From positions 1 through 45,724 of the forward strand of contig CAMDBU010000026.1 of the NCBI GenBank assembly GCA_945889495.1: a stretch of DNA of 45,724 nucleotides. Direction: 5' to 3'. The stretch is from Syntrophobacter sp. SbD2. Its GTDB lineage: Bacteria > Desulfobacterota > Binatia > UBA9968. The position numbers were made by a program, and so were the translations under genes. Positions 5,232 through 38,243 of the stretch are shown here, one piece after another. Numbering within the stretch: the first letter of the stretch is position 1; each line of letters starts with the position of its first letter. Under the pieces are notes generated by a model that did not search any database, had not been told where the DNA came from, and saw only the letters and a program-made list of their open reading frames with translations.

Positions 5232-5262
5232 AAATCTCCCCCTCCACCGTCCCTCGCCCGAA

Positions 5263-5511: not shown

Positions 5512-5561
5512 CTGAATTCTCCTTTGCAATTTTTCCCCAACCGGCCTCGACTAGGTTGATT

Positions 5562-5789
5562 TTACTTGGTCCCCTGCGCGGCACCGCCTTCGCGATTCGC
5601 TTCCGCCGCGCCATCGCCGCTCGGACTCGCCGCCGGCCGTTCGCTCACCGGGGTGGGCGCGGCGAGCTCCGCCGTCTTGCCCGCCACCGGCGATTCCGCC
5701 AGCTTCTTTTCCTCGCGAGCTTCGCCGGCCAAAACCAACGCCAGGCCGAAAGCCAAAACCACTCGCCGCTTTACGCTAGGATTATTCAT
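5562..5789 (-). CDS. Small exported low-complexity protein
   Basis: A 75-aa ORF starting MNNPSVKRRVVLAFGLALVL with a plausible signal peptide or single anchor. The tail is rich in Ala, Glu, Pro and Ser (AAPTPVSERPAASPSGDGAA) and probably disordered in the periplasm. GGAGG stands seven bases before the ATG, which supports it as a real gene. It has no recognisable domain. It lies between mlaC and the small exported gene at 5263-5511, all on the same strand. Confidence 0.55.
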   Translation of the reverse strand: MNNPSVKRRVVLAFGLALVLAGEAREEKKLAESPVAGKTAELAAPTPVSERPAASPSGDGAAEANREGGAAQGTK

Positions 5790-5830
5790 GTCAGCGCCTC
5801 CATCGATTAATGCAGTTAATGTTTACCCAA

Positions 5831-6475: not shown

Positions 6476-6639
6476 TCCCACGATAACTCCCGCGGCTTGG
6501 CGCCTTTGAACAGATCGGCCAAGATGAACGACACCAAAGCGTAGGTTTTCTGCTCGTCGCGCTCCGGGCCGCCCACTGCATCGGTCAGCGCGACAATCAA
6601 ATCGCCCAAGGTGGTTTGCCACTTTTCCGATTGCTTCAT
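6472..6639 (-). CDS. Small hypothetical protein upstream of mlaC
   Basis: A 55-aa soluble protein starting MKQSEKWQTTLGDLIVALTD and ending PRELSWE. The ATG at 6639 has AGGGG eight bases upstream, so it is preferred over ATG 6657 and over the longer open frame to 6726. The hydrophobic/charged pattern suggests two helices. Its stop codon overlaps the mlaC start (ATGA), which supports a two-gene operon. Family not recognised. Confidence 0.6.
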   Translation of the reverse strand: MKQSEKWQTTLGDLIVALTDAVGGPERDEQKTYALVSFILADLFKGAKPRELSWE

Positions 6640-7118
6640 TATCAACGCCCCTTTCATCGCATGCTGCGGTTTTCGCGCACACCCCTGCGGCTGCGCTGAG
6701 ACCGTCTCAACGCACTGTGGACCCATGACATAGTTGCAACTTAGCGAAGCTGCGGGCCGGGCGGACCGCGCCCGAATTTATTTGATTGCCGTGCTCAAGC
6801 TAGCCACTCAATTAAATTCCCCCTCGGTGGTCTCGCTCTCGCTCACGGTTCTCCGCAAGCTCCGTACCAATTGCCACAGAAATATCCTAAGTGACTTAGA
6901 ATGAAGCACTTAGTCTAATTCAGCCGATCCATCGCGACGGCGCAGCACCACCGCCTTGTATGAGATCGCCTACCGGCAAAAAACCGCACCAACCAACTAA
7001 CTCCGTGATATTGGGAAACTAATCGCTGTAGGATTAACCTGCGCGAATTGTCTTGCGCTCGCCGCGCGAGTTTTTAAAAGTTTTGCCGATGCATGGTGAC
7101 GACTCCCGCAGCTAGCGC
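6640..7118. other. 479-base divergent intergenic region
   Basis: Lies between the divergently transcribed mlaC pair (minus) and helicase gene (plus), so promoters for both should be here. I see no gene and no convincing RNA. A weak hairpin (CTCGC-CGC-GCGAG, 7058-7070) followed by TTTTT at 7071-7075 resembles a small intrinsic terminator on the plus strand, but the stem is only five pairs. An imperfect AAGTGACTTAG / AAGCACTTAG repeat lies near 6890-6915. Confidence 0.35.
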
Positions 7119-21824: not shown

Positions 21825-23027
21825 CTACTGCTTCAGCATCTTGACCAGCTCTTCGTTCAACTTGGCGCCGCCGCCTTTGAGATAAAAGTTGAACAGCTCT
21901 TTGGGCTCTTGCAGCTTGATCTTATGATCGCGCAGATGCTTCGCCATGCGCGAGCTTTCGACCAGGTGGGACGAGCGGAACTCATGCTTCTCGATGATCG
22001 CTTGGCCTTCCTTGGAAATCATGAAGGCGGCGAACAGTTTGGCGAGATTAGGATGGCCGGAATTTTTCGGCACGCCGAGATGAAAATACGAAGTATCGCC
22101 GGGCGTGGAGCCGAGCACCGCGGTCAGCGGCGCGCCCTTGGCTTGCCATTTCCATTGAGTCGCCAGCGCGTCGCCAATGTTGGCCATGATCGGAAACTCG
22201 CCGCTCAACACTCGCTCCTCTTCGCCGTAGCGCAGCCAGCCGCCGTTTAGCGCCACCAGCTTGCGGGTGAAATCTTTCAAGCGCTCCTCGCCCCAGATCA
22301 GCGCCAACTCGACCAACCAGTTGGGATAGGGCGGCACGGCAATCTTGCCGGCCCAAGTTTGGCTCAACTTGGGATCGACCAGATCTTCGTAACTCTTAGG
22401 CGCCTTATCGGCTGCGATCAGATTGGAATTGTAAATAATCCCGCGCGGCGACGAGTAGACCAGTACGCCGCGGCGCGACACCGTCTCTTCCATCGCTTTG
22501 GCGATCCACGGAAATGTTCCCGACCAGTTGATCTCTTCCAGCGCGTTCTCGCGCACCAGGTTGGCGAATTGACCAAGCGAGCCCAAGTAAATATCGCTGG
22601 TCGCCTTGCCGCCGGCTTTGAATTCGCTGATCACCCGCGCCGCCATGGCGTTCATCTCCGGCCCGGCGCTGAAGCGAATCTTGGCTTCGAAGCCGAAGCG
22701 CTTAGCGAAGGCCCCTTCGATCTCAGCCAACCCCTTCTTACCGCCGAAGGTGGTCGGCCCGGCGATGAAAGATAATTCTTTTTCATTCTTGGCGGCGGCA
22801 ACAATTTGATCGAGGGATTGGGCTGGCGCTGAACTGAACCACGTCATGACCAAAAGCACGACGGCGATAACCAGAAGACTCTTTCTTCCGTCATTCCGGC
22901 GCAGGCCGGAATCCAGGTTTTCTTCAACCTCGCAGCACAAGCGAAGATGGATGCCGGCCGGAGTCCATCCTGAGCGTGGTCGAAGGGCCGGCATGACGGA
23001 TCCTAAAGACGCTAATCTTGTTGCCAT
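21825..23027 (-). CDS. FbpA-like periplasmic binding protein 1, with a repeat inserted in its signal peptide
   Basis: A 400-aa extracellular solute-binding protein, family 1/FbpA-like fold. Key stretches: FIAGPTTFGGKKGLAEIEGA, AGPEMNAMAARVISEF, SDIYLGS, GVLVYSSPRGIIYNSNLI, AGKIAVPPYPNWLVELALIW, and a C-terminus KLNEELVKMLKQ. Strongly similar to the proteins at 26332-27411 and 28615-29682. ATG 23027 is two bases after the Rieske stop and has GGAG seven bases upstream, so the start is firm. Residues about 10-47 are encoded by a dispersed palindromic repeat. Removing them leaves a normal signal peptide (MATRLASLG joined to RKSLLVIAVVLLVM, then APAQ). Export may be slowed or use an abnormal N-region. 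Confidence 0.88.
   Translation of the reverse strand: MATRLASLGSVMPALRPRSGWTPAGIHLRLCCEVEENLDSGLRRNDGRKSLLVIAVVLLVMTWFSSAPAQSLDQIVAAAKNEKELSFIAGPTTFGGKKGLAEIEGAFAKRFGFEAKIRFSAGPEMNAMAARVISEFKAGGKATSDIYLGSLGQFANLVRENALEEINWSGTFPWIAKAMEETVSRRGVLVYSSPRGIIYNSNLIAADKAPKSYEDLVDPKLSQTWAGKIAVPPYPNWLVELALIWGEERLKDFTRKLVALNGGWLRYGEEERVLSGEFPIMANIGDALATQWKWQAKGAPLTAVLGSTPGDTSYFHLGVPKNSGHPNLAKLFAAFMISKEGQAIIEKHEFRSSHLVESSRMAKHLRDHKIKLQEPKELFNFYLKGGGAKLNEELVKMLKQ
22888..22999. repeat. CCGTCATTCCGG...GCATGACGG repeat lying inside a coding sequence
   Basis: Terminal inverted heptamers CCGTCAT (22888-22894) and ATGACGG (22993-22999) enclose a mosaic containing GGCCGGAATCCAGG and CATCCTGAGCGTGGTCGAAGG-type blocks, both typical of dispersed intergenic palindromes. 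All of it is translated in frame within binding protein 1. Confidence 0.82.
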
Positions 23028-23029
23028 CC

Positions 23030-24175
23030 TTACACTCCGCTGGTCGCCACCAACTTTTCCGGCCTACTCCATTGCTTCAGCGCTTGCCCCGCCGCCAGCG
23101 CCGCCAGCTCGCGCTGCCAGATTTGCCGCATGAGAATAATCGCCACGTCCGAGCGGCCGAGCCGTTCGTTGACCCGGTCGGCGATGGCACCTTGGCCTTC
23201 CTGGGCGACGTGATCTTGGATGTTGACGATGTCGGGGCGCTCTTCGATATCGTGCACGCTGATTTGTCCGGCCAGCACCCGCGCCGCCATCTCGTTGGAC
23301 GACGGCAGGTTGGCGACGATTTCTTCCTGGCGCCGCTGGCGCTCGCGAAAGCGCTCGGCGGCGTCGCCGCTGACATGGATTAACGCGATATTGAAACTGC
23401 GATGGCTAACATCGTCCACCGGCACGCGCCAGGCGAACGCTTCGCGCCAGCCTTCCCGCGCGCTCTCCGGCGAACCTTTGATGTAGAGAATATTCGGCAT
23501 GAGGTAATGATTGATGCGCGCTTTGCCGTCCGTGCGCGTGCCGTACATGGCGATGCCGTAGTCGGTTTCCCCGGCGCTGATCACCGGGATGTCCCAGTTG
23601 AGACCGAACTTGGTAAAGCCCGATTTGGCGTGGGTGAACGGTACATGCACTTGATCGATGCCGTTCTCCAGCGTGCCGAAATAATTGCAGTGGCGAATGT
23701 AGCTGCCGACGTCGATCTCACCTTGTTCCGATAACTCAGGATAGTCGGGGAATGGCGGCGCGGCGCCGTCACCAAAGTAGGCGAAGATCAGCCCGAGAAA
23801 TTCATGGGTCGGGCAGCTGCGAATTTTGACCTTGGCCGCGAACGCCGCGTCCTCCGCCGGCTGCTCGACGCATTGGCCACTGCCGTCGTATTTCCAGCCA
23901 TGGTAGAAACAGCGAAGGCAATCCTCCTCGACCCAACCCACCGACAACTGCGTGCCCCGATGGGCGCAACGAAAGTCGACGACATAGGCCGCGCCGCTGG
24001 CGCCGCGGTAAAGCGTGAAATCCTCGCCCATAATGCGAATCGGCACCGCGTAACCGGTCTGCAACTGCGCTGAGACAAACACCGGCTGCCAAAACCGCCG
24101 CAAATATTTCCCCGCTATGGTTCCCGGCCCGGTGTGGACGAAATCGATTTCGCCGCTATCGCTGTTAGTGGTCAT
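23030..24175 (-). CDS. Rieske non-heme iron oxygenase 1 (alpha-subunit type)
   Basis: A 381-aa aromatic-ring-hydroxylating-type oxygenase component. The Rieske cluster ligands are Cys70, His72 (RCAHRG) and Cys89, His92 (RCFYHGW), counted from ATG 24175. The mononuclear iron site has Asp174, His177 and His182 (NGIDQVHVPFTH). This is the phthalate/carbazole-type architecture without a beta subunit. It needs a reductase for electrons, and none is in the window. Start chosen by AGGA nine bases upstream; ATG 24184 is an alternative. Its stop is two bases before binding protein 1, so the pair is translationally linked. Substrate unknown. Confidence 0.9.
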   Translation of the reverse strand: MTTNSDSGEIDFVHTGPGTIAGKYLRRFWQPVFVSAQLQTGYAVPIRIMGEDFTLYRGASGAAYVVDFRCAHRGTQLSVGWVEEDCLRCFYHGWKYDGSGQCVEQPAEDAAFAAKVKIRSCPTHEFLGLIFAYFGDGAAPPFPDYPELSEQGEIDVGSYIRHCNYFGTLENGIDQVHVPFTHAKSGFTKFGLNWDIPVISAGETDYGIAMYGTRTDGKARINHYLMPNILYIKGSPESAREGWREAFAWRVPVDDVSHRSFNIALIHVSGDAAERFRERQRRQEEIVANLPSSNEMAARVLAGQISVHDIEERPDIVNIQDHVAQEGQGAIADRVNERLGRSDVAIILMRQIWQRELAALAAGQALKQWSRPEKLVATSGV

Positions 24176-24202
24176 GGTCTCCATTCCTGCTCGGATTCGG
24201 AA

Positions 24203-24284
24203 TATCTCTCGCAAAGACGCAAAGGCGCAAAGTTCGGAATCTTATTATTCTTAACTTCGCGCCTTTGCGCTTTGGCGGGAGATA
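24203..24284. repeat. TCTCGCAAAGACGC...GCGCTTTGGCGGGAGA palindromic repeat
   Basis: The best-preserved copy of the CGCAAAG family here: CGCAAAGGCGCAAAGTTCGG on the left, AACTTCGCGCCTTTGCGC on the right. It fills the gap between the permease and Rieske 1. The rest of the gap (to 24379) holds TTTGCGTTCTCTGCGG and CTCACGCCTCGTGCC pieces. Confidence 0.78.
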
Positions 24285-24379
24285 CTCCGGCTTCTTTCCA
24301 TGAGCCCTTTGCGTTCTCTGCGGCCAATCCCATCCGGTCCGAACTCACGCCTCGTGCCTCAAGCCGCACGCCTTCTCTA

Positions 24380-26122
24380 CTACGCCGATCCGGCCACCTG
24401 CTGCTGTTTGCGGGCGTAGATCCAAAAGCTCGTCACCACCGGTGACATCACGGCGATCATCATGATCGCGATCGCCGCGGCGTCGCCCAAGCCGCCGCCA
24501 TGCCATTGGCCCCAGATGTAGGTCGACAGCACCTGGCTCTTGGGCGACGAGAGAAACACCGCCATGGTCAGCTCGCGGTAGGCCGACAGCGAGGTCCAGA
24601 TCCAGGTGTAAATCAGCCCAGGCTTGATCAGCGGCACGATGATTTTCGCGAGAATGTTAAACGACGACGCGCCACCCACTTGCGCCGCTTCTTCCAACTC
24701 GCGATGCACTTGGATCATGCTGTTGTTCAACACCCGAGTGCCGAAGCTGATCCAGCAAACGATATAGACCGCCATGATGACGAAGATCGTGCCATATACC
24801 GGCACGACGTTGGAGACCAACAAGGCGAGATAAGCGATCGCCAGGGCGAAAAGCAAATTCGGCACCGGGTGGGGCAAAAACGCCACCGCGTCCAAGGCGA
24901 CGCGCCAGCGCAGCTTCGAGCGTGTGACGATCCACGACACCGCGGCGCAGATCAATACGATCAAGGTCGGCACCGCGACCATTAACAGAATCGTGTTCAA
25001 CGCCGCGTCGAGGATCGCACTATCGAAGGCCGCCGTGGTGTAGCGCTCGAAAGTAAGCGTCGACAGCGCCTGCCAGGACGGCGCCTGCACATAGGGCAAG
25101 AGCGACACCCAAAAGATCGCCAACAGCGGCAGGACGAACGCTAGGGTGAAATAAAGACCCAGCAGCCCCCAGGCGGTCCAGCGCCAGCGGCCCAACTCCA
25201 CCGGCCGCGGCTGATAAGCCTTGCCGGAAATGATTTGATACTTGTGGCTCTGCTTGAGCGCGATGAAGTACGGGATCATCAAGATCAGCGACAAGCCGAC
25301 CATGATCGTGCCGTAAGCGCCGCTCAGGCCGTAGCGCGGCAAGCCTTCGTTGGGATTGATCATGAAGTAGATCGCCGTGGCGAAGGTGAAAATATTGTTG
25401 GCCATACCGATCACGCCCGGCACGTCGAAGGCGGCGATCGCCACGGTGAACATCCAGATCACCGCCGAGAACAGCGCCGGCCAGATCAGCGGCAGCTCGA
25501 TGCGCACCAGCGTGCGCCACTGGCTCACGCCATGGACGCTGGCGGCCTCCACCAGCGCCGGGTTCATGCTTTTCAGCGCGGCCGAGATCATCACGTAGGC
25601 GAGCGGCGTCAAGGTCAATCCCTGCACCCAGCCGATGCCGGTCAGCGTCGCGATGTTGAGCGGCGCCGAGGTCAGGCCAAACAGCTGCATGAGAAAAATA
25701 TTGATCATGCCGATGCGCGGATGGAGCAAAAACACCCAGCCCATGGCCTTGAGAAAAGTCGGGAACAAAATGCCGATGCTGAGCAAACTCATCGCCAGGG
25801 CTTTGTACGGCATGTCGGTGCGCTCGACCAACCAGGCGAAGATAAATCCCAACGGCACCGCCACCGCGATGGTCACGGCGGAAAAATACAGCGTCGTCCA
25901 CATCACCTTGTAGGTGTAAGGATCGTTGAGGATCGCCGCGTAGTTTTTCAACGAATAGTCCGACGGCTGCCCCGGCACGCCGGTGCGCAGGCTCATCCAG
26001 ATAATCATGCCCAGGAGCACGAGAATCGACAGCGCGGCCAGGCCGCCGACGGCGACCAGGGATAATTGCGACCAATTGATCTGGCTGCCGCGCGGCTCGG
26101 GCATGATGACTTGAGTGGACAT
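24380..26122 (-). CDS. Two-domain FbpB/ThiP-like ABC transporter permease
   Basis: A 580-aa inner-membrane permease with about 12 helices in two homologous halves, the form used by ferric-iron, thiamine and related family-1 solute importers. Each half has an EAA loop that docks the ATPase: VEAASVHGVSQWRTLVRIEL in the first and EEAAQVGGASSFNILAKIIV in the second. The N-terminus (MSTQVIMPEPRGSQINW) is cytosolic. It lies inside the binding-protein/Rieske run, after binding protein 2, and is the only permease there. No ATPase gene is in the window, so the ATP-binding subunit must be supplied from elsewhere. The three binding proteins may share this one channel. Confidence 0.9.
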   Translation of the reverse strand: MSTQVIMPEPRGSQINWSQLSLVAVGGLAALSILVLLGMIIWMSLRTGVPGQPSDYSLKNYAAILNDPYTYKVMWTTLYFSAVTIAVAVPLGFIFAWLVERTDMPYKALAMSLLSIGILFPTFLKAMGWVFLLHPRIGMINIFLMQLFGLTSAPLNIATLTGIGWVQGLTLTPLAYVMISAALKSMNPALVEAASVHGVSQWRTLVRIELPLIWPALFSAVIWMFTVAIAAFDVPGVIGMANNIFTFATAIYFMINPNEGLPRYGLSGAYGTIMVGLSLILMIPYFIALKQSHKYQIISGKAYQPRPVELGRWRWTAWGLLGLYFTLAFVLPLLAIFWVSLLPYVQAPSWQALSTLTFERYTTAAFDSAILDAALNTILLMVAVPTLIVLICAAVSWIVTRSKLRWRVALDAVAFLPHPVPNLLFALAIAYLALLVSNVVPVYGTIFVIMAVYIVCWISFGTRVLNNSMIQVHRELEEAAQVGGASSFNILAKIIVPLIKPGLIYTWIWTSLSAYRELTMAVFLSSPKSQVLSTYIWGQWHGGGLGDAAAIAIMMIAVMSPVVTSFWIYARKQQQVAGSA

Positions 26123-26170
26123 GGGGGCCTGGTACTTTCGATGCTTGCTTCGCTCAGGAGAATCTTTATT

Positions 26171-26240
26171 GCGTCATTCCCGCGAAAGCCGGAATCCAGG
26201 CTTCGAAGCGGATGGATACCGCCCTACGCCGGTATGACGG
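26171..26240. repeat. GCGTCATTCCCGCG...GTATGACGG dispersed palindromic repeat, copy 3
   Basis: GCGTCATTCCCGCGAAAGCC opens the copy and GCCGGTATGACGG closes it. It is followed by a GTTTGTCCTGAGACCTGTCG, then AAGG block, another common dispersed element. It lies between binding protein 2 and the permease. Confidence 0.78.
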
Positions 26241-26331
26241 ATCACGGGACTAGTGACAGCCGGTTAATTTGCAACCGCCCGCCGTTTGTCCTGAGACCTG
26301 TCGAAGGATTCCGGGCGAGCGGTACGCGTCA

Positions 26332-27411
26332 CTATTTCAACAAAATCTTATTCAGCTCTTCTTCAAGGCCGTTGTCGGCCTTGAGGAAGACTTCGTTCAA
26401 CTGTTTGGGATCCTGGAGCTTGATCTTGTTCGACTTGACGAATTTCGCCAAGATCGTGCCTTCGACCAAATGAGAACTGCGATAATCCTGCTTCTCCAAC
26501 ACGCTCTGTGCCTCGCGGGTGGTCATAAAAGCGATAAACAGTTTGGCCATGTTCGGATGCACGGAATTCTTCGGCACTCCCAGTTGATAATAGGACGAAG
26601 TCGCCGGCGACGACCCCGCCAAACCGACCAGTGGCGCGCCTTTGGGCTGCCATTTCCACATCGCTTCGAGCGGCCCACCGGTGCTCGCCATGATCGGAAA
26701 TTCACCGCTGACGATGCGCTCCTCTTCGCCCTGGCGCAGCCGGCCGCCGGCGAGCGGTGCTAGTTTGCGCGCGAAGTTGAGAACTTTTTCCTTGCCCCAG
26801 ATTGGCGTCAGCCGGATCAACCAGTGAATATACGCCGGGATCGCCATCTTGCCGGCCCAGGTCGGCGACAGCGCCGGATCGATCAGATCTTCGTAGCTCT
26901 TGGGCGCCTTGTCCTTGGGAATCGCGTTACTGTTGTAAATAATGCCGTGAAACGATGAGTAGACCAGTAACGACTCCTGCGGGCTGATCTCCATCTCCTT
27001 GGTCACCCAGGGAAAGATGCCCGCCCAGTTAACCTTCTCCAGCGCCTTCTCTTCATGCATGTCGGCAAACGTGCCGTCCGAACCCAGATACATGTCGGTG
27101 GACGATTTGGAGCCCGCCTTCTGCTCGGTAATGATCCGCGCCGCCATCTGCGGAAAGCTCGGCCCGCCGCTCAAGTTGAGCTTGGCCTTGAAGCCGTAGC
27201 GCTTGGCGAACAAGGCTTCGAGTTCGGTGAAGCCCTTCTTGCCACCGAAGGTCGAAGTGCTGGCGACCAACGTCACCTCGCCCTCCTTCTTCGCCTCGGC
27301 AACGATCTGCTCCAACTTCTGCGCCGCCGCCAATTGCGGCGATAACAACCAAAACGCGATCAAGACGTTCAGCAGCGCAAGACGTCTTACTACGGTCAAT
27401 CGATCCGTCAT
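26332..27411 (-). CDS. FbpA-like periplasmic binding protein 2
   Basis: A 359-aa paralog of the other two binding proteins in this operon. Signal peptide from MTDRLTVVRRLALLNVLIAF to about LAAAQ. Mature part: VASTSTFGGKKGFTELEALF, GGPSFPQMAARIITEQ, GIIYNSNAIPKDKAPKSYED, EERIVSGEFPIMAST. ATG 27411 is preferred over the longer frame because a GGAG lies eight bases upstream. That GGAG is inside an AT-rich dispersed repeat. Where its paralogs read FxAGPEMNxMAARV it has GGPSFPQMAARI, so its ligand pocket probably differs. It sits between Rieske 2 and the permease. Confidence 0.9.
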   Translation of the reverse strand: MTDRLTVVRRLALLNVLIAFWLLSPQLAAAQKLEQIVAEAKKEGEVTLVASTSTFGGKKGFTELEALFAKRYGFKAKLNLSGGPSFPQMAARIITEQKAGSKSSTDMYLGSDGTFADMHEEKALEKVNWAGIFPWVTKEMEISPQESLLVYSSFHGIIYNSNAIPKDKAPKSYEDLIDPALSPTWAGKMAIPAYIHWLIRLTPIWGKEKVLNFARKLAPLAGGRLRQGEEERIVSGEFPIMASTGGPLEAMWKWQPKGAPLVGLAGSSPATSSYYQLGVPKNSVHPNMAKLFIAFMTTREAQSVLEKQDYRSSHLVEGTILAKFVKSNKIKLQDPKQLNEVFLKADNGLEEELNKILLK

Positions 27412-27444
27412 TATCAATTCTCCATTATCCATTCTCAATTAATT
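27409..27444. repeat. AT-rich dispersed repeat (AATTGATAATGGAGAAT family), copy 2
   Basis: On the minus strand, TTAATTGAGAATGG, then ATAATGGAGAATTGATAATG. It covers the stop codon of Rieske 2 (27439-27441) and the ribosome site and ATG of binding protein 2. Confidence 0.75.
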
Positions 27445-28566
27445 TAACGCTTCGACCGCGTCTCGGCTTGAGTCAAAAACAATCTGCCCATCAGCCTGGC
27501 GCAGGATGGCGAACGGCTCTTTGCCCTGGGCCACCGCGTCGATGGAGTCGCGGATCATTTTGCGCAGCATGATGATCCCTTGGTCCCCGGTCGCCAGATG
27601 TTCCTTGGTCCGGTCGGCGATCACGCCTTGGGTTTCCTGGGCGACCCGATCCTGCTCGCGGTTGGGCAGATCCCACCAGCCGTCTTTGACTCGCGTGTAC
27701 ACCCCCGGCTCGCTTTTGCGAAACTTGCGCGTCAACAGCGGCTCGGGTCGGGTCGGTTTACCGTCCTTGTGCGGGTAGAAGTCGATGTAAAACGTGTTGG
27801 TCGTGTAGTCATCCTTGGGCACCCGGAAGCGGATCACCTGGCGCGGCTGCTCGTCAATTCGAGCAGCGGAGTGGCGGATATGAGACGGAAAAATGAAATG
27901 CGATATGCGCGGCTTGGACACGCCTTCGACCAAAGTGGTTTCTTTGATGCCGAAGGGCGTCGGCTCCCATTTGATTGTCGGCCGCTTCATCGCCATGTTG
28001 GGATAGCCGGCGGCATGGAGCGCGATGGAGTGGGTGCCGTCGGCGGAGTTCTCGGCGCGCTGTAGCCAATTGCAAAACTCCTCGCCGCCGCCGATCACCC
28101 GGCAGCCATCATCGCGCACCAGTAAATCATAGGGCGGCAAGAGCGGCACGGGATCGGGGCCGATATAGGCGAAGATCAATCCGGCGGCATCCTGGGCATG
28201 AAAAGCCGGATGCTTGACCCGATCCTTGAACGTGCTGTCGGCGGGCTCCGCCGGTTGATCGAGACAATTGCCGCGCGCGTCCCAGAGCCAGCCATGGTAA
28301 CAGCAGCGGATGCCGTTCTCTTCCACCCGGCCATACTCCAACGACGTGCCGCGGTGCGAACAATGCAGCGCCACCAGCCCCAACTTACCCGCGCCGTCGC
28401 GGAACAAGACAAAATCCTGCGCCAACAACGTCACCTTGGTCGGCGCCGCCTTGGCCTGCACCTGATCGGTAAACGCCACCGGCCACCAATAACGCCGCAA
28501 CATCTCCCCCGCCGGCGTCCCCGCGCCGACCCGGGTCATCAGTTCATTTTCTTCCGCACTTAACAT
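27439..28566 (-). CDS. Rieske non-heme iron oxygenase 2 (alpha-subunit type)
   Basis: A 375-aa oxygenase component. From ATG 28566 the Rieske ligands are Cys69/His71 (HCSHRGTSLEYG) and Cys88/His91 (RCCYHGWLWD). The iron-site residues are Asp176, His179 and His184 (ENSADGTHSIALH). The C-terminal region (DRVAQETQGVIADRTKEHLA) is shared with Rieske 3 and, more weakly, Rieske 1. GGAGGGG ten bases upstream supports the start. The stop codon is provided by an AT-rich repeat, so the natural C-terminus may once have been different. Likely a phthalate-dioxygenase-like oxygenase; substrate unknown. Confidence 0.9.
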   Translation of the reverse strand: MLSAEENELMTRVGAGTPAGEMLRRYWWPVAFTDQVQAKAAPTKVTLLAQDFVLFRDGAGKLGLVALHCSHRGTSLEYGRVEENGIRCCYHGWLWDARGNCLDQPAEPADSTFKDRVKHPAFHAQDAAGLIFAYIGPDPVPLLPPYDLLVRDDGCRVIGGGEEFCNWLQRAENSADGTHSIALHAAGYPNMAMKRPTIKWEPTPFGIKETTLVEGVSKPRISHFIFPSHIRHSAARIDEQPRQVIRFRVPKDDYTTNTFYIDFYPHKDGKPTRPEPLLTRKFRKSEPGVYTRVKDGWWDLPNREQDRVAQETQGVIADRTKEHLATGDQGIIMLRKMIRDSIDAVAQGKEPFAILRQADGQIVFDSSRDAVEALN

Positions 28567-28588
28567 GTTTGCTCGACCCCTCCGAAAC

Positions 28589-28615
28589 GAATTCACTAGT
28601 CACTATCCACTAATT
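28589..28615. repeat. ATTCACTAGTCACTA short AT-rich repeat
   Basis: ATTCACTAGTCACTATCCAC followed by TAATTCACTG repeats the unit TCACTA/TTCACT and separates binding protein 3 from Rieske 2. The pattern resembles a small dispersed element. Confidence 0.4.
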
Positions 28616-29682
28616 CACTGCTTTAGCATCTTCGTCAGCTCTTCCTTAAACTCCAGCCCGCTATCCTCGCCTTGCAGATAGAAGTTGATCGATTCCTTGG
28701 CTTCCTGCAACTTCAATTTGTTCTGTTTCAGATACCGGTTCATCATCGTGCCTTCAACCAGGTGCGAGGTACGGAAGTCTTGTTTCTCGAGAATCGCCTG
28801 GGCTTCCTTGGACGCCATGAAGCCGGTGAACAGCTTGGCGAGATTGGGATGGGCCGAATTGCGCGGCACCGCCAGCTGGAAATAGGACGGCAACACCGGC
28901 GTCGAGCCCATCACCGCCACCAGCGGCGCGCCCTTGGCCTGCCACTGCCACATCTGTTCGGTGGCGCCGCCCATGTTGGCGGCGATGGGAAATTCGCCGC
29001 TGACCACCCGCTCCTCTTCGCTGTAACGCAGCCGGCCGCCGCTCAAACTGACCAGCTTCTTGGTGAAGTTCTTGACCTTGTCCTCGCTCCAGATCATCGA
29101 CAGCTCGACCAGCCAGGAAACGTACGGCGGGATCGCCAGCTTGCCAGCCCAGGTCGGACTCAACTTCGGATCGACCAAGTCTTCGTAGGTCTTGGGCGCT
29201 TTGTCCTTGGGGATAATTTTGGAATTATAAATCATGCCGCGCAGCGAGGTGAAGATCAGCACCCCTTCGTTGGGGAAAATCTCCATCGGCTTGCTGATCC
29301 AGGGAAAGATGCCGGAGTAGTTGACCTGCTCCAGCGCCTTCTCCTTGTGCAGTAGCGACACATGGGACTGCGAGCCGTGATAAATATCGCTCGACGCCTT
29401 GCTGCCGTTTCTGAGTTCGGTAATCACCCGCGCCGCCATGGAGTTCATCTCCGGCCCGGCGGCAAAGCGAATCTTCATGTTGAGACCGAAGCGCTTGTTA
29501 AAAGCCGCTTCGAGCAGATTCAAAGTCTTCGGCCCGCCAAAGGTCTGCGCCCCAGCGATGAAGGTGAGTTCCGACTCTTTCTTCGCCCCGGCGATCAACT
29601 GCTCCAACGTCTCGGCCGCCACATGCGAATGAAGCGACACAGACATCAACGACCAGGCAGCGACCTTGGCAGATATCTTCAT
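28615..29682 (-). CDS. FbpA-like periplasmic binding protein 3
   Basis: A 355-aa paralog. Signal peptide from MKISAKVAAWSLMSVSLHSH, cleaved near HVAAET. Conserved stretches: FIAGAQTFGGPKTLNLLEAA, AAGPEMNSMAARVITE, SDIYHGSQ, RGMIYNSKIIPKDKAPKTYE, AGKLAIPPYVSWLVE, EERVVSGEFPIAANMGG, and the end FKEELTKMLKQ. It shares most of its core with binding protein 1 (for example the GPEMN motif), suggesting similar ligands. GGAGAG precedes ATG 29682. It lies between Rieske 3 and Rieske 2 on the same strand. Confidence 0.9.
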   Translation of the reverse strand: MKISAKVAAWSLMSVSLHSHVAAETLEQLIAGAKKESELTFIAGAQTFGGPKTLNLLEAAFNKRFGLNMKIRFAAGPEMNSMAARVITELRNGSKASSDIYHGSQSHVSLLHKEKALEQVNYSGIFPWISKPMEIFPNEGVLIFTSLRGMIYNSKIIPKDKAPKTYEDLVDPKLSPTWAGKLAIPPYVSWLVELSMIWSEDKVKNFTKKLVSLSGGRLRYSEEERVVSGEFPIAANMGGATEQMWQWQAKGAPLVAVMGSTPVLPSYFQLAVPRNSAHPNLAKLFTGFMASKEAQAILEKQDFRTSHLVEGTMMNRYLKQNKLKLQEAKESINFYLQGEDSGLEFKEELTKMLKQ

Positions 29683-29698
29683 CCCACTCTCCGATCCG

Positions 29699-29738
29699 AA
29701 ACGACTTGAACGGTTGGAACGTTTGGAACGACTGGAAC
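29699..29738. repeat. TTGGAACG tandem repeat
   Basis: Four to five degenerate copies of (T)TGGAACG in a row (CTTGAACGG, TTGGAACGT, TTGGAACGA, CTGGAACC). They lie in the 67-base gap between Rieske 3 and binding protein 3. Confidence 0.65.
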
Positions 29739-29749
29739 CTTCAAGCGAG

Positions 29750-30898
29750 TTAGTCGAGCATTTCTTCCTTGGGCTCCAAGCGAATCAGCTCATTCTTTTT
29801 GGCATCGCGAATGACGCCGAGCGGATCGCGCCCCTGCTTGATCGCGTCGATGCCGTCCTTGTAGATTTTGCGCAGTAGAATAACGCCCTTGTCGGTGGTC
29901 ACTAGATGTTCGCTGGTGCGGTCGAAGATCACCCCCTGGCTTTCCTGCGCCGCGCGGTCCTGATCCTCGCGCGCCAGCCAGCCGATCTCGTCGTCCCAGC
30001 GGTATTTGCCGAAGACCGTATCCTGCACGCCTTCGGTCGAGCGGTCTTTCATCAACTTCGAAGTAATCTTGCCGTCGACCTCGTTGGCGAACTCGACGGT
30101 GTAGTGGATCGTGCTGGTATCGTCGATGGGTACGCGCCAACGCATCACCTCGCAGGCGCTGCTGGCGCGGTGCTCGGTGGGATGGCCTTCTTCGACATTG
30201 CCGGTCTTGTTGATCGTCGGCATGACGAAGAAGTTCACATGGGCCCAGTTATGGCCGGACACCCGCCGGGTGTAAGTGTTGAGCACGCCATGCTCGAAGA
30301 GCTGCGGATTGATCTCGCCGTCTTCCCAGGTCGGCGTGGTCAGACCGCGGTGAAGCCACTTCAAGTGATTCTGGTCCACTGAGTTCTCAATCATCTGGAA
30401 GTAATTGCAGTTGACGATGCGCGCGCGCATCGCCCGCTGCCCGTCGGTCCGCGCCACCACGTCATAGCGCGGCAACAACGGCGCCGGCTGCGGCCCCATG
30501 TAAACGAACAAGACACCGCCCAACTCTTGAACCGGATAGGAAGGCTGGCGAATGCGCTGCTTGAACGTGCTGTCGGCGCCCTCCCCCGGCGTCTCCAACA
30601 CCTTGCCGTCAACGTCGAACAGCCAGCCATGATAGCAACAACGAATCCCGCCGCTCTCGATGTGGCCAAACTCCAGCGAAGTGCCCCGGTGCATGCAACG
30701 CAACGCCAACACACCAAACTTGCCAAACTCGTCCTTGAACAATACAACGTCTTCGCCAAGAATCCGCTTCTTCTTGGGCTTACCCTGCAACTCGTTGGCG
30801 AAACCAATCGGCTGCCAATAGCGCCGCAAGAGCTCCCCGGCAGGCTTGCCCGGCCCGACCTGGGTCAACATGTCGTTCTCTTCTTTGCTCAGTGCCAT
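29750..30898 (-). CDS. Rieske non-heme iron oxygenase 3 (alpha-subunit type)
   Basis: A 382-aa oxygenase component and the first gene of the operon. From ATG 30898 (GGGA seven bases upstream) the Rieske ligands are Cys68/His70 (RCMHRG) and Cys87/His90 (CCYHGW). The iron-site residues are Asp175, His178 and His183 (ENSVDQNHLKWLH). Its N-terminus, MALSKEENDMLTQVGPGKPA, is repeated exactly in a relic at 31804-31922. The C-terminal half shares QDRAAQESQGVIFDRT and LLRKIYKDGIDAI with Rieske 2. A TTGACA promoter precedes it. The frame open to 30973 is not used. Substrate unknown, aromatic acid suspected. Confidence 0.9.
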   Translation of the reverse strand: MALSKEENDMLTQVGPGKPAGELLRRYWQPIGFANELQGKPKKKRILGEDVVLFKDEFGKFGVLALRCMHRGTSLEFGHIESGGIRCCYHGWLFDVDGKVLETPGEGADSTFKQRIRQPSYPVQELGGVLFVYMGPQPAPLLPRYDVVARTDGQRAMRARIVNCNYFQMIENSVDQNHLKWLHRGLTTPTWEDGEINPQLFEHGVLNTYTRRVSGHNWAHVNFFVMPTINKTGNVEEGHPTEHRASSACEVMRWRVPIDDTSTIHYTVEFANEVDGKITSKLMKDRSTEGVQDTVFGKYRWDDEIGWLAREDQDRAAQESQGVIFDRTSEHLVTTDKGVILLRKIYKDGIDAIKQGRDPLGVIRDAKKNELIRLEPKEEMLD

Positions 30899-30943
30899 GA
30901 CCGTTTCCCTTTGCTGAGAAAATTTTTCGCGTTTGTTTAGTAA

Positions 30944-30973
30944 CGAATATCCGAGTCGCGCCAAAGGTGTCAA
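30944..30973 (-). promoter_or_regulatory. Probable sigma-70-type promoter of the Rieske/binding-protein operon
   Basis: On the minus strand TTGACA (30973-30968) is followed after 16 bases by GATATT (30951-30946), or after 18 bases by TATTCG, about 45 bases before the Rieske 3 ATG. The block with the -10 region (ACGAATATCCGAGTCGCG, plus strand) and the TTGACA are preserved in the duplicated copy at 31968-31997, while the bases between them and the gene have diverged. That pattern argues for a functional site. Confidence 0.6.
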
Positions 30974-31086: not shown

Positions 31087-31545
31087 ATGGCTCGTCAGAA
31101 CCGAAAAATTCTCTATCTTGACGTTTGCACCCTCTGCCGTCCGTTCGACGATCAGAGCATGATGCGAATTCGGCTAGAGACGAACGCCTATTATTTGGTG
31201 CTCCAAGCGGTCCAAGATGAAAAATATACAATGGTTGTCTCTCCCGTTCACTTTGAAGAAGTCAATGCGATTAGCGACACTGAAGAAAGACGAGAAGTCT
31301 TGGCAGTGCTGGAAAAACTTGGAACAACGTCTGAATGCGACTTGACAGCAGCAAGAGCGAGGGCTGTAGACCTCCACACCAGGAAATTTGGCATTGCAGA
31401 TGCCGCTCATGTCGCGTTTGCTGAAGCTACTGCGGACTTCTTCATTACCTGCGATGACCGGTTGTTGAGGAAGTGCAAAAGGGAAAGAGTTGCTATAATA
31501 GCGATGAATCCAGTTGAATTTACTATCACGGAGGATCTGAAATGA
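31087..31545 (+). CDS. PIN-domain protein (VapC-like ribonuclease toxin)
   Basis: A 152-aa PIN-fold protein, probably a metal-dependent RNase toxin. ILYLDVCTLCRPFDDQ gives the first acidic residue (Asp12). FGIADAAHVAFAEATADFFI followed by TCDDRLLRKCK gives the later Asp cluster. Its stop overlaps the next start (ATGA), so the two form one unit, with the toxin-like gene first. Base composition here is AT-richer than the surrounding catabolic genes, consistent with transfer. Confidence 0.8.
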   Translation: MARQNRKILYLDVCTLCRPFDDQSMMRIRLETNAYYLVLQAVQDEKYTMVVSPVHFEEVNAISDTEERREVLAVLEKLGTTSECDLTAARARAVDLHTRKFGIADAAHVAFAEATADFFITCDDRLLRKCKRERVAIIAMNPVEFTITEDLK

Positions 31546-31766
31546 AAGCCTGTATCTTTACAGACGAGGAGCAGCTTATCACGAAAGCGGTTGATGTCCT
31601 GGTAAAAGAACTCGGACCGGTTGAGGCCAGCCGTTTCTTAGCCCTGCCCAAGAAGAAACGCATGGAATCGGTGAAACGCCATCGTCAATGGCAGGCTCAG
31701 TTACAGCCAGCGGAGTTCTTCGACCGCGTGTTTGGCGGCCGAGCGAAAGGAGCCATTAGGAAGTAA
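31542..31766 (+). CDS. Small partner of the PIN-domain protein, possible antitoxin
   Basis: A 74-aa basic protein starting MKACIFTDEEQLITKAVDVL and containing ALPKKKRMESVKRHRQWQAQ, with no recognised DNA-binding fold. The four-base overlap with the PIN gene suggests coupled expression, and antitoxin is the natural guess. It does not look like the usual AbrB, RHH or Phd types. The 3' end lies close to the Rieske relic, which reads the other way. Confidence 0.6.
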   Translation: MKACIFTDEEQLITKAVDVLVKELGPVEASRFLALPKKKRMESVKRHRQWQAQLQPAEFFDRVFGGRAKGAIRK

Positions 31767-31967: not shown

Positions 31968-31997
31968 CGAATATCCGAGTCGCGCTTGGAGTGTCAA
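31968..31997 (-). promoter_or_regulatory. Promoter copy upstream of the Rieske relic
   Basis: TTGACA (minus, 31997-31992) with the same 16-base spacing to GATATT (31975-31970) and the same CGCGACTCGGATATTCG block as the promoter of Rieske 3. It may still drive transcription through the relic toward the PIN module, antisense to it. Confidence 0.5.
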
Positions 31998-33801: not shown

Positions 33802-35187
33802 ATGGCCGACCCAAACGCGACTTTGCTGCGCGAACTGCCTTCTATCGATCGCCTGCTCAATCATGGGCGCTGCGCGGCTTTGCTGACCCGGTACAACCGC
33901 GATTACGTGACGCAGAAATGCCGCGCGGCGTTGGATCGGCTGCGCGCCGATATTCGCCAGGGCAAAAGCCAGCTTTTGAATGACGACGCCATCATCGATC
34001 AGGTCGAGGCTTGGATCGAGTTGGAAAGCCGCCCCGGCCATATTCGCGTGGTCAACGCCACTGGCACGATCCTGCATACCAACTTAGGTCGCGCGCTACT
34101 ATCGCAAGCGGCCATCGACGCGATGGTCGCGGTGGCCGGCAAGCCGGTTAATTTGGAATACGATCTCGCCGCCGGCAAGCGCGGCAAGCGCGAAGAGACG
34201 CTGCAGCAACTGCTGGTGGATTTGACCGGCGCCGAAGCGGCCACCGTGGTGAACAACAACGCCGCGGCGGTGTTGCTGGGCTTGAACTCGTTGGCGCAAG
34301 GCAAAGAAGTGATCGTATCGCGCGGCGAGTTGATCGAGATCGGCGGTGCATTTCGGATTCCCGAGATCATGGCCAAGAGCGGCGCCAAGCTGCGCGAGGT
34401 CGGCGCGACTAACCGGACCCACCCGGCGGATTACGAAAACGCTATCAACGACAAGACCGCGCTGCTGTTGAAAGTCCACACCAGCAACTACAAAGTCGTC
34501 GGCTTCACCGCCGAAGTGACCCTGGAACAGATGGTCGCCATCGGCAGGAAGCACAATCTACCGGTGATGGAAGATTTGGGCAGCGGCGCGCTCATCGATT
34601 TGAGCAAGTACGGCTTGCCCAAAGAGCCGCTAGTCGGCGAACGAATCGCCGCCGGCGCCGATGTGGTGACATTTAGCGGCGACAAAATCCTCGGCGGCCC
34701 GCAAGCCGGCTTGATGGTCGGTAAGAAAGAACTCATCGGCAAGATCAACAGAAATCATCTGCAACGCGCGCTGCGCTGCGGCAAGCTGACGCTGGCAGCC
34801 CTGGAAGCGACGTTGCGCCGCTACCGCCAGTCGCCCAACATCACCGAAGAAATCCCCACACTGCGCGCCTTCACCCGTTCAGTGGACGAAGTCCGCGCCA
34901 TGGGCCAATCCGTATTGCCGAAACTCGCAGCCGCCCTCGGCGACGGCTACCAACTGTCGCTGCAAGACTCGACCTCGCAAATCGGCAGCGGCGCCATGCC
35001 GACCGAAGAGCTGCCGACCGTCGTCATCACCGTCGAATCGACCAAGCAAAGCGCCAACGCCATCGCGAAACGATTCAGACAAGCCGATCCACCGATCATC
35101 GGCCGCATCCAAGAGGATCGCTTTCTCTTAGACCTACGCACCATCTTCGACGCCGATGATTTAATCCCGCAGCTGCGCTCCGAATAA
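33802..35187 (+). CDS. selA: L-seryl-tRNA(Sec) selenium transferase
   Basis: A PLP enzyme that converts seryl-tRNA(Sec) to selenocysteyl-tRNA(Sec) using selenophosphate; a large homomultimer in the cytosol. 461 aa is the family length. Visible: NATGTILHTNLGRALLS, GKRGKREETLQQLL, VVNNNAAAVLLGLNSLA, SRGELIEIGGAFRIPEIM, VHTSNYKVVGFTAEV and the PLP-lysine stretch TFSGDKILGGPQAGL. Start at ATG 33802 (MADPNATLLRELPSIDRLL), with no strong ribosome site. selB begins 38 bases after the stop, across an AT-rich repeat, and selD follows. The three form one selenium operon. Confidence 0.96.
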   Translation: MADPNATLLRELPSIDRLLNHGRCAALLTRYNRDYVTQKCRAALDRLRADIRQGKSQLLNDDAIIDQVEAWIELESRPGHIRVVNATGTILHTNLGRALLSQAAIDAMVAVAGKPVNLEYDLAAGKRGKREETLQQLLVDLTGAEAATVVNNNAAAVLLGLNSLAQGKEVIVSRGELIEIGGAFRIPEIMAKSGAKLREVGATNRTHPADYENAINDKTALLLKVHTSNYKVVGFTAEVTLEQMVAIGRKHNLPVMEDLGSGALIDLSKYGLPKEPLVGERIAAGADVVTFSGDKILGGPQAGLMVGKKELIGKINRNHLQRALRCGKLTLAALEATLRRYRQSPNITEEIPTLRAFTRSVDEVRAMGQSVLPKLAAALGDGYQLSLQDSTSQIGSGAMPTEELPTVVITVESTKQSANAIAKRFRQADPPIIGRIQEDRFLLDLRTIFDADDLIPQLRSE

Positions 35188-35220
35188 TTATCCATTCTCA
35201 ATTATCAATTATTAATTAAT
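35188..35220. repeat. AT-rich dispersed repeat (AATTGATAATGGAGAAT family), copy 3
   Basis: TTATCCATTCTCAATTATCA followed by ATTATTAATTAAT fills almost the whole selA-selB gap. It is the inverted form of the unit at 16953 and 27409. Confidence 0.7.
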
Positions 35221-35225
35221 CCCCC

Positions 35226-37154
35226 ATGCCCTACATCATCGGCACCGCCGGCCACATCGACCACGGCAAAACCAGCCTCATCAAAGCACTGACCGGCACC
35301 GACACCGACCGCTTGAAGGAAGAAAAAGAGCGCGGCATCTCCATCGACTTGGGCTTCGCCCATCTCGATCTGCCCGACGGCACCTCCGCCGGCATCGTCG
35401 ACGTGCCCGGCCATGAGCGCTTTATTAAAAATATGCTCGCCGGCGCCCACGGCATCGATCTGGTGCTGTTCACCGTCGCCGCCGACGACGGCGTCATGCC
35501 GCAGACCGAAGAACATCTCGACATCGTTCATTTGCTCGGCGTCAAGATGGCGATCTTCGTCATCACCAAGGCCGATCTTGCGCCCACGCATATCGCCGAT
35601 GTCGAGGAAGAGATCGACATCCTCACGCTCGGCACCATCTTGGAAAACTCGCCCAAGATCGCGGTGTCCTCGGTCACCGGCCAAGGTTTGGAAGAGTTGA
35701 AGCAACTGATTACCACGACGTTGAAAAGCGCCAACCACGCCGCGCCCAACGGCTATTTTCGTCTGCCGGTGGACCGCGCCTTTGTTCTGCAGGGCCATGG
35801 CGTGGTCGTCACCGGCACGTCGCTCGCCGGCGAGATCAAGGTCGGCGAGCAGGTGCGCTGCCTGCCCGGCGACAATTTGTTTCGCGTGCGCAGTCTTCAA
35901 GTGCATGGCCAGTCGGTCGAGCGCGCCGGTTGGGGCCAGCGGGTGGCGATGAACTTGACCGGCCCCGAGCGCGCGTCCATCGAACGCGGCCAGGTCATCT
36001 GCCAGGAAAAATTGGCGCTCACCTCGCAACGCTTCGACGCGTTTCTGGAAGTGCGCCCGGCGGCGGCCAAGGGCATTAAAAATCATCAGCGCCTACGCAT
36101 CCACATGGGCGCCGCCGAACGCTTGGGCAAGATCGTCTTGCTTGGCGACAAGGACAAAGCCGAGCCAAAAGAATCAGTTTACTGCCAGATTACGCTGGAA
36201 GAACCGCTGTTGGTCCTGCGCGGCGACCGCTTCGTCGCCCGCGACGAAACCGCCCAACGCACCCTCGGCGGCGGCACCATCGTCCATCCCTGGTCGGCGC
36301 GCCACAAACGCAGCGAAGCGAACTTGTTGGAACGGCTCAAAGCGCTGCACAGCGGCGACTTCGGTCAGGTGATGGAAAATTTTTTGAACGACAGCGGCGA
36401 GTTCACCCTCGGCATCGACGCCATCTATCAGTTCTTGAACCTGCGCGAAGAAGAAGCGCGCCAGAAGGTCGACGGCTTGAAATCCCTGCGCGCGGTCAAC
36501 GCCGAGGGCGAGCGGGTCTACACCACCGAGCCCAAATGGAGCCGGCTGAAAGAGCGCTTGCTCAAGACGCTCAAAGAGTTTCACGCCGCCCATCCGTTGG
36601 TGCCGGGCATGGACATGGAAGAGCTGCGCGGCAAGCTCGGTTACCAACTCTCGCCAAAAATCTTTCGCGTCCTGGTCGACCTGTTCAGCAAGGAAAAACT
36701 CATCGCCAAGGAAGAAAACTTCCTGCGCCTGGCGAGCCACCAGCTCCAACTCGGCGGTCAGGAAAAAGTCCTGATGGACAAGATCAAGAAAATCTTGGGC
36801 GAGCAGCCGCTGGCGCCGCCGGACTTGAAGGAAGTCGAGAAACAAGCCGGCGTGCCGCGCACTCGCCTGACCGAGGTAATCCGGCTCCTCGAGCGCGACG
36901 GCTCGGTGGTGCGCATCACCACCGACATGTACTTTCTCGGTTCGAGCATCGAACAGCTGCGCGCCACGCTGGTGCAATTTTTAACCGACAAGGGCGAGAT
37001 GAACGCCGCTGCGTTTCGCGATCTGATCGGGTCGAGCCGCAAGTACACGATCCCGCTACTCGAATATTTCGACCGTGTCGGCCTGACAATTCGCATCGGC
37101 GACATCCGCAAGCTCAAAGTACCACTGGCAGCGGCGAAACCAGCGGGACGTTGA
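35226..37154 (+). CDS. selB: Selenocysteine-specific translation elongation factor
   Basis: SelB brings selenocysteyl-tRNA to UGA codons that carry a SECIS hairpin. The 642-aa protein has an EF-Tu-like GTPase domain: GHIDHGKT at residues 9-16, then [28 protein letters not shown] and ITKADL. Two beta-barrel domains follow ([18 protein letters not shown]). A C-terminal series of winged helices, which reads the mRNA hairpin, runs from about residue 380 to the end ([40 protein letters not shown]). Length and domain order are typical. It lies between selA and selD. Confidence 0.96.
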
Positions 37155-37187
37155 ATTCAGTAAACATTCGATCTACAGTTGCCGCCT

Positions 37188-38243
37188 ATGATGCTCGGCA
37201 AAAAGAAGCCGGTACGATTGACCCAGGAAGTCAAAAGCGCGGGTTGAGCTGCTAAGCTCGGTCCGGGTGACCTGGCGCAAGTACTACACGACTTACCAAA
37301 GTTCAACGATCCCAACATGCTGGTCGGCACCGAAACGGCCGACGACGCCGGGGTGTACCGTTTGCGCCCCGACTTGGCGATCGTCAACACCGTGGACTTC
37401 TTCCCCCCGATGGTCGACGACCCCTATTTGTTCGGCCAGATTTCCGCCGCCAACTCGCTGAGCGACGTCTACTCCATGGGTGGCGATCCCAAGACCTGCA
37501 TGAACATCGTCTGCTTTCCCAAGGGCAAGATGGACATCTCCATCCTGGGCGATATTCTGCGTGGCGGCGCCGATAAGGTCAAAGAAGCCGGCGCGGTGAT
37601 CATCGGCGGCCACAGCATCATCGACGAAGAGATCAAGTACGGCATGTCGGTCACCGGCGTGATCCATCCCGACAAAATATTCCGCAACGTCGGCGTCCAA
37701 GAAGGCGATGTCCTGATCCTAACCAAGCCGCTCGGCACCGGCATCATCACCACCGCCCTCAAACGCGGCAAAGCCTCGGCGGAAAGCGTCGACCAAGCCG
37801 TAGCGTCCATGACCACGCTCAACGCCGCGGCGTCCTACGTCGCGCGCCGATTTCCGGTGCACGCGGTTTCCGATGTCACCGGCTTTGGCGTCCTCGGCCA
37901 CGCCCAGGAAATGGCCAGCGGCAGCGGCATCACGCTAATTCTTGAATCGGCCAAACTCCCCTTGCTCAAGGACGCCGTCAAGCTCGCCGACAAGGGCTAC
38001 ATCACCGGCGGCTGCAAGCGCAACCGAGACTATCTCGACGACAAGATGGTGATCGAGAAATCGGTCAGCGACGGTTTGGCCGAGGTCGCCATCGACCCGC
38101 AGACCTCCGGCGGCCTGTTGATCGCCGTCGGCAAGCAACACGCCGATAAAATCATCGCGGAACTCCACGCCGCCGGCGTCACCGTAGCCTGCGTAATCGG
38201 TTACGCCACCTCGCAGCAAAAGCCCTGGGTCAGGTTGGTCTGA
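37188..38243 (+). CDS. selD: Selenide, water dikinase - a UGA-containing selenoprotein
   Basis: SelD makes selenophosphate from selenide and ATP. The uninterrupted ORF begins only at ATG 37317, but that would miss the ATP-binding N-terminus and the catalytic residue. Reading upstream in the same frame gives ATG ATG at 37188-37193, then KPVRLTQEVKSAG, TGA (37245-37247), AAKLGPGDLAQVLHDLPKFN and straight into LVGTETADDAGVYRL. This matches SelD, where the TGA falls on the catalytic Cys/Sec site before K-x-GPGDL. So the product is 351 aa with Sec20. Other motifs: VDFFPPMVDDPYLFGQISAA, NALSD-type NSLSDVYSMGG, GGHSIIDEEIKYG, DVTGFGVLGHA, GGCKRNRDY and DPQTSGGLL. The start is 33 bases after selB. 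The ribosome site is weak, so TTG 37179 is also possible. Confidence 0.93.
37256..37276 (+). promoter_or_regulatory. Bacterial SECIS-like hairpin for the selD UGA
   Basis: Starting eight bases after the UGA: G56-C76, C57-G75, U58-G74 wobble, one C/U mismatch, then GGUC (37260-37263) paired with GACC (37269-37272), loop CGGGU (last two digits give base numbers). The loop begins 16 bases after the UGA and has G in its first two positions, fitting the general description of bacterial SECIS elements. Predicted by eye only. Confidence 0.6.

Follow-up and report, generated by a model that had tools for sequence, protein, structure and literature searches.

The window analyzed here, the 45,724-nucleotide contig CAMDBU010000026.1 (C26) of Syntrophobacter sp. 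SbD2, carries on its minus strand, at 21825-30973, seven open reading frames (ORFs) transcribed in the order R1-S1-R2-S2-permease-R3-S3, in which R stands for a Rieske oxygenase and S for a substrate-binding protein (receptor). This operon is read here, with moderate confidence, as a modular ATP-binding cassette (ABC) system for the uptake and first oxidation of several related small molecules. The R-S pairs are under purifying selection: when compared with the congener G001, all seven genes have dN/dS values of 0.08-0.18. The window genome (G000) comprises 5.64 Mb in 239 contigs; G001-G004 denote the other genomes of the genus.

Composition and conservation of the array

All seven ORFs of the original prediction exist on the minus strand with the domains claimed for them. 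The Rieske domain PF00355 is found in R1-R3 (64.8-73.4 bits), the families SBP_bac_8/1/11/6 match S1, S2 and S3 above cut-off, and two stretches of the permease match BPD_transp_1 (PF00528, 52.9 bits). The start of R1 is most likely the ATG at 30898, with which the end coordinate implied by the earlier work agrees. The statement that all three Rieske proteins keep both iron sites also holds: in the alignment, C73/H75/C92/H95 and D180/H183/H188/D319 are invariant across R1-R3. The pattern CxH...CxxH, D-x2-H-x4-H and a further acidic residue is invariant in R1-R3 and in 10 related rows, and these Cys, His and Asp residues of R1-R3 are presumably the metal ligands. R2 and R3 share 43% and 32% identity with R1, and phthalate 4,5-dioxygenase (7fhr) is the closest solved relative of R1, R2 and R3.

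The three binding proteins, described earlier as clear paralogs, are indeed one family in the tree, with S2 and S3 being 56% and 61% identical to S1. This family is distinct among the receptors of G000 (four members at 559-709 bits, next receptor at 147), and S3 is placed inside it. In the Rieske tree, from which three G015 fragments were dropped, R1, R2 and the oxygenases of the separate C137 locus fall together in one 27-row clade (98/96), and R3 and its G001 counterpart group apart with five other Rieske rows of G000 (100/100, with a long-branch warning). Since R3 belongs to a separate Rieske clade and S3 to the S family, the third pair was not copied as a whole pair. Joint duplication of all three pairs was rejected on this ground for pair 3 but not for the other pairs, and the description of the operon as triplicated applies to the receptors and to R1 and R2, not to R3.

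The identical seven-gene order, followed by azlC as in the window, is found in G001 (C70). Among the 193 genomes searched, the S family (E<=1e-70, a threshold picked after the score gaps were seen) is present in 12, the window's own included, all from the same taxonomic order. In a phylum-wide sample of 395 genomes, which contained few members of this order, S (E<=1e-60) and the permease (E<=1e-180) were each detected in one genome, the window's own. Scans for wider spread revealed six close loci (66-88%) in metagenome-assembled genomes (MAGs) and three weak ones (26-28%) among genome contigs, as well as 10 plasmid records at 26-32%. Across the 12 genomes, 22 of the 26 genes of the S clade have a Rieske gene as their direct same-strand neighbour; two others sit at contig ends (G005:C204 and G006), and the MAGs compared are fragmented. 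A match in G005:C79 (245 bits) lies outside the S clade and is not counted among the 26. No Rieske match occurs in any of the 10 paralogous permease regions (L124, L153-L161). The adjacency, whose absence from other genomes would have marked the pairing as chance, is kept both in the congener operon and in most of the S family.

That members of two huge gene families became neighbours by chance is an explanation of negligible probability. The family sizes speak for it, as G000 holds 39 Rieske places and 104 matches to substrate-binding proteins (SBPs), but 12 of the 39 places have a same-strand SBP within 2.5 kb, against 2.08 expected and a maximum of 8 in 2000 random sets under a null of uniform placement, which ignores SBP clustering. 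Chance adjacency was rejected on this excess and on the conservation across genomes, since a congener has the identical operon and other genera have related arrays. When contigs C26 and C137 are left aside, the count is 7 of 34 (1.71 expected), a value equalled by the largest random set, and the excess elsewhere in G000 is thus modest.

The partners within the pairs are constant as well. The comparison drew on seven genomes with 17 R-then-S pairs, of which 14 come from four multi-pair genomes. The identity matrices of R and S correlate at 0.80, a value matched by only one of 20,000 shuffles of partners within genomes (20,736 arrangements are possible, the true one among them). This set is without G015, the S-before-R units of G027 and G032 and the units cut at contig ends, and the G013 partner enters it as a 188-residue piece. 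Of 54 comparisons with another multi-pair genome, 46 had the best R match and the best S match in a single pair. Such constancy may mostly reflect the inheritance of whole loci. The rearranged order in G019 (beta-S4, alpha-S1, epsilon-S, permease, ATPase; Greek names denote oxygenase clades) is a more telling sign, as two pairs keep their partners there in a changed order. The beta-S4 pair, located before the permease in the G019 array, forms in G000 the separate locus C137, with a citryl-CoA-lyase-like gene and an enoyl-CoA hydratase gene upstream of it, as also in G001. Independent histories of R and S, which would have undone the pairing, were thus not seen for pairs 1, 2 and C137, and pair 3 differs in the clade of its oxygenase.

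Some of the compared genes are irregular. The Rieske gene of G015:C69 (L127) and the receptor gene of G013:C42 (L126) are split between frames, owing to decay or assembly error. In G019:C8 (L128), at 4627-7530 (minus strand), receptor and permease lie in one 967-codon frame, which could be a fusion or a missed stop.

Table 1. Features of the array and its 5' flank in the window.
Feature	Position	Strand	Evidence
R1, Rieske oxygenase alpha subunit, phthalate-dioxygenase-like (alpha clade)	29750..30898	-	PF00355, 64.8 bits; closest solved structure 7fhr
S1, exported substrate-binding protein	28615..29682	-	SBP_bac_8/1/11/6; type II binding-protein fold (model)
R2, Rieske oxygenase (delta clade)	27439..28596	-	PF00355, 65 bits; tree
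S2, substrate-binding protein, true start probably internal	26332..27438	-	SBP_bac Pfam families; S tree
Permease, one chain with two BPD_transp_1 stretches, PhnU2-like far under the model cut-off	24380..26122	-	Pfam, NCBIfam, tree
R3, Rieske oxygenase of a clade other than that of R1 and R2	23030..24214	-	PF00355, 73.4 bits; tree
S3, substrate-binding protein, in-frame repeat ahead of the signal peptide	21825..23027	-	SBP_bac Pfam families; S tree
Probable operon promoter, TTGACA-N16-GATATT	30946..30973	-	kept ahead of R1 in four genomes
R0, a fourth Rieske gene reduced to its first ~65 codons	31767..31961	-	73.7 bits, model positions 3-57

Importer components and electron supply

Most of the predicted S1 model (pLDDT 73) can be superposed on type II binding proteins, with Z values of 17.6-20.3 among the 50 matches listed. 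They include the metal-citrate receptor MctA (Z 20.3, root-mean-square deviation 3.8 over 300 residues) and the sugar-phosphate receptor AfuA (Z 19.8, 3.5 over 280 residues). None of the receptors matches an NCBIfam model at E<=0.001. A Pfam match to TctC is likewise absent at E<=0.001; the receptors fall in SBP_bac families and the permease is ABC-type. At least 103 receptor genes of this clan are present in G000 (150 of 192 candidates scored), far more than the 15 permeases of the two-domain type, a count that covers fused permeases only. At the start of S3, a hairpin-forming repeat (window 22870-22996) lies in frame and adds ~40 codons before the signal peptide; it has 25 BLAST matches in 30 stretches of G000 and is absent, by eye, in the congener G001.

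The permease scores 134.3 bits against the PhnU2 model TIGR03262, whose cut-off is 593.25, and misses the cut-offs of all 22 NCBIfam models listed. In the permease tree it groups with G001, G006, G013, G015 and G019 (99/99 clade), with G002 outside. The absence of an ATPase, ferredoxin or reductase noted earlier is correct for the operon but not, as regards the ATPase, for the genome, in which an ATPase of the matching subfamily is encoded at C1:56361-57422, off the operon and beside another oxygenase of the family. An ATPase gene follows the permease in G002, G006, G013, G015, G019, G027 and G032. When the G006 copy was used to search 35 genomes of the order, 10 genomes each had a single match at E<=1e-118, the G015 copy matching over residues 2-224 of 357 only. 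These 10 include all nine genomes in which the permease match scores at least 850 bits; the tenth, G003, has the first 63 permease residues at a contig end. In G000, G001 and G003, the ATPase gene is located on a different contig and is followed by one or two Rieske genes.

In the ATPase tree, the C1 ATPase falls in a 100/99 clade with G002. The different placement of G002 in the permease and ATPase trees points to a pair of sister operons, the genus having retained the permease of one and the ATPase of the other. The trees thus suggest that the importer is a hybrid, its permease coming from one ancestral operon and its ATPase from a sister operon that lost its permease. Translocation of the ATPase followed by faster divergence is the alternative, and sister operons are the simplest reading.

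The earlier proposal to look for orphan partner genes yielded the ATPase on C1 but no reductase domain of the FNR type: PF00175 (NAD_binding_1) has no match in G000 or in its four congeners (5/5 genomes). The profile detects the E. coli Rieske reductase YeaX at 36.3 bits and has matches in 11 of the 35 genomes of the order, including the array carriers G013 and G019. Despite the lack of a detected FNR-type domain, G000 contains 39 Rieske-domain places. A YeaX homologue was not found in 127 stretches representing part of G000. Fer2 is found at 17 places in G000, with a best score of 36.3 bits (YeaX, 53.9); five of them were inspected and comprise two CoxS-like proteins, one NuoG-like, one SdhB-like (by eye) and one cyclase. 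Two small Rieske ferredoxins are also encoded, on contigs C29 and C94.

A scan of eight proteins from the 26 Pyr_redox_2 places in G000 put glutathione reductase and lipoamide dehydrogenase above cut-off, and of two thioredoxin reductases one was above and one just under it. The rest were a GltD-like protein (contig C16), two proteins resembling sulfide dehydrogenase or sulfide:quinone oxidoreductase (SQR), and a 203-residue protein near the end of contig C159. The last matches SQR weakly (45.6 bits), as it does two ferredoxin reductases of dioxygenases, AndAa (38) and HcaD (35.6), with every score well short of the cut-off; the AndAa and HcaD matches leave room for a partner of the glutathione-reductase type.

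Promoter and neighbouring genes

The promoter-like motif upstream of R1 is kept in G000, G001, G003 and G004, with the surrounding upstream DNA diverged. The pattern has two matches in the window and occurred in none of 100 shuffles; a general promoter scan of the window showed no excess (5 found, 3.5 expected). The second copy, at 31970-31997, belongs to R0, which is 84% identical in DNA sequence to the start of R1 over 193 columns. A loose pattern for a promoter common to C137, C1 and other units matched none of eight units. R1 and R0 are separated, at 31087-31766 on the plus strand, by a gene resembling PIN-domain genes (23.3 bits against a Pfam cut-off of 23.6) and its 74-codon partner; the region has the appearance of an insertion accompanied by duplication of part of the operon's 5' end.

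Further along the window, selA, selB and selD are encoded together at 33802-38243, all above cut-off. The selD gene contains an in-frame TGA at 37245-37247, at the apparent catalytic position, so that its product is probably itself a selenoprotein.

Proposed role and comparison with known systems

Under the favored reading of a modular uptake and first-oxidation system, three exported receptors would bind related small acids, probably aromatic ones, in the periplasm, as their fold and family suggest. All three would dock on the single permease, powered by the unlinked ATPase at C1:56361-57422, and the adjacent Rieske oxygenase would carry out the first oxidation of its receptor's cargo, consistent with the intact metal sites and the conserved pairing. 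Each R-S pair acts like a cassette open to duplication, to standing alone (C137) or to taking up another oxygenase (R3).

The genes around the arrays point weakly to substrates of the hydroxybenzoate type or other aromatic acids. The G015 array contains, on the same strand, a homologue of gentisate/5-aminosalicylate 1,2-dioxygenase (291 and 312 bits, under both equivalog cut-offs); the array also includes an NMT1-type receptor and a gene resembling amino-acid racemases. Maleylacetoacetate isomerase (290 bits, above cut-off) is encoded by the second gene upstream of the C1 ATPase, and look-alikes of it were seen by eye upstream of the ATPase in G001 and G003.

Several observations weigh against this reading. 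Two of the 26 S genes (G002:C8:99417 and G004:C392) have no Rieske neighbour, R3 departs from the pair pattern, and the epsilon oxygenase is partnered with different S proteins in different genomes. Both the S and the Rieske trees carry long-branch warnings, the approximately unbiased (AU) test of joint duplication gave p 0.186, neither rejecting nor proving it, and the ATPase threshold was fixed once the paralogue scores were known. The fold matches of S1 bind metal-citrate, sugar phosphates, iron, opines and polyamines; with ligands so unlike one another, the substrate class is weakly founded and the fold names no ligand. Finally, conserved gene order by itself can yield constant partners, so that constancy does not establish a match in specificity between receptor and oxygenase.

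A possible, though rather less probable, account is that the pairs are conserved only as genomic blocks, with amplified receptors feeding one or a few common substrates and the oxygenases acting on various, partly internal, ones. The S proteins of G000 are mutually 53-64% identical and their R partners 29-56%, as this account would have it; the origin of R3 in another clade and the wide amplification of receptors relative to two-domain permeases fit it too. It sits poorly with partners that stay constant across genomes, including the rearranged G019, and with the C137 pair, which remains paired outside the operon. That the receptors are binders of metals or metal chelates, in the manner of FbpA and MctA, bringing iron to the oxygenases, is improbable. 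MctA and the iron binders FutA/HitA are among the top fold matches, and there is a weak sequence match to HitA. Ferric-iron receptors of the FbpABC type use adjacent tyrosines as iron ligands, and the weak alignment with HitA/FbpA is confined to short stretches outside the iron-ligand region; the fold family, moreover, binds many kinds of ligand, and a separate iron receptor for each of three oxygenases would be hard to make sense of.

Beyond the modular uptake and oxidation system itself, a plug-in architecture is advanced only tentatively, as a rather unlikely elaboration: exchangeable receptor-oxygenase cassettes on one hybrid importer, with an electron donor that would lie outside the usual reductase classes because the genus shows no FNR-type reductase. 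If it were true, a cell would gain a substrate by copying a pair or swapping an oxygenase. The absence of a detected FNR-type reductase in the genus makes the question of electron supply a testable one. Few substrates are known for those uncultured soil bacteria that encode dozens of Rieske oxygenases; should each receptor match its oxygenase, binding screens of the easily made receptors would point to the substrates of oxygenases that are harder to assay. The paired gene series also suits the study of the joint evolution of uptake and catalysis.

The receptor fold, the BPD_transp_1 permease and an ATPase in the genome, which probably drives this permease, are those of an ABC importer with type II receptors. 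The array resembles importers of the FbpA/AfuA/PhnU2 type in its receptor fold and two-domain permease, but its permease lies under all the NCBIfam cut-offs compared and its receptors match no family there. R1-R3 have the same two metal sites as enzymes of the phthalate 4,5-dioxygenase type (7fhr, 7fjl), the best-matching stretches being mostly the first 190-270 residues (11-360 for R2 with 7fjl); unlike for that type, no FNR-type reductase domain was detected in the genome.

The closest parallel in working is found in the terephthalate/isophthalate uptake and dioxygenase systems of Comamonas sp. E6, where, in the accessible text of the reports, the receptor genes tphC and iphC lie within the degradation clusters of their own substrates, the membrane proteins TpiBA are encoded elsewhere, and membrane proteins of the tripartite tricarboxylate transporter (TTT) family accept different receptors (PMC13040137, PMC8556258). 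As far as that text goes, in both cases the receptors sit with their oxygenase and have one membrane unit in common. TpiBA, however, belongs to the TTT type, which has TctC-type receptors, TctA/TctB membrane proteins and no ATPase, whereas the permease of the window is ABC-type and its receptors are SBP_bac proteins; in addition, the pairs of the window form one tandem array around one permease, with no reductase or diol dehydrogenase gene among them. The ABC importer and the tandem array thus set the window system apart from the TTT family despite similar working. ABC importers of o-phthalate serve phthalate catabolism in Burkholderia and Rhodococcus (PMC13040137); they are described in the available part of that source as single transporters, with one receptor in Burkholderia, and receptor-oxygenase cassettes are not mentioned there. 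Literature searches on Binatota Rieske enzymes and on receptor/transporter systems, and the passages cited above, turned up no description of the present array. Receptors that sit with an oxygenase and share a membrane unit are already known from a TTT system; the window presents them in an ABC-type tandem receptor-oxygenase array, which is real and conserved.

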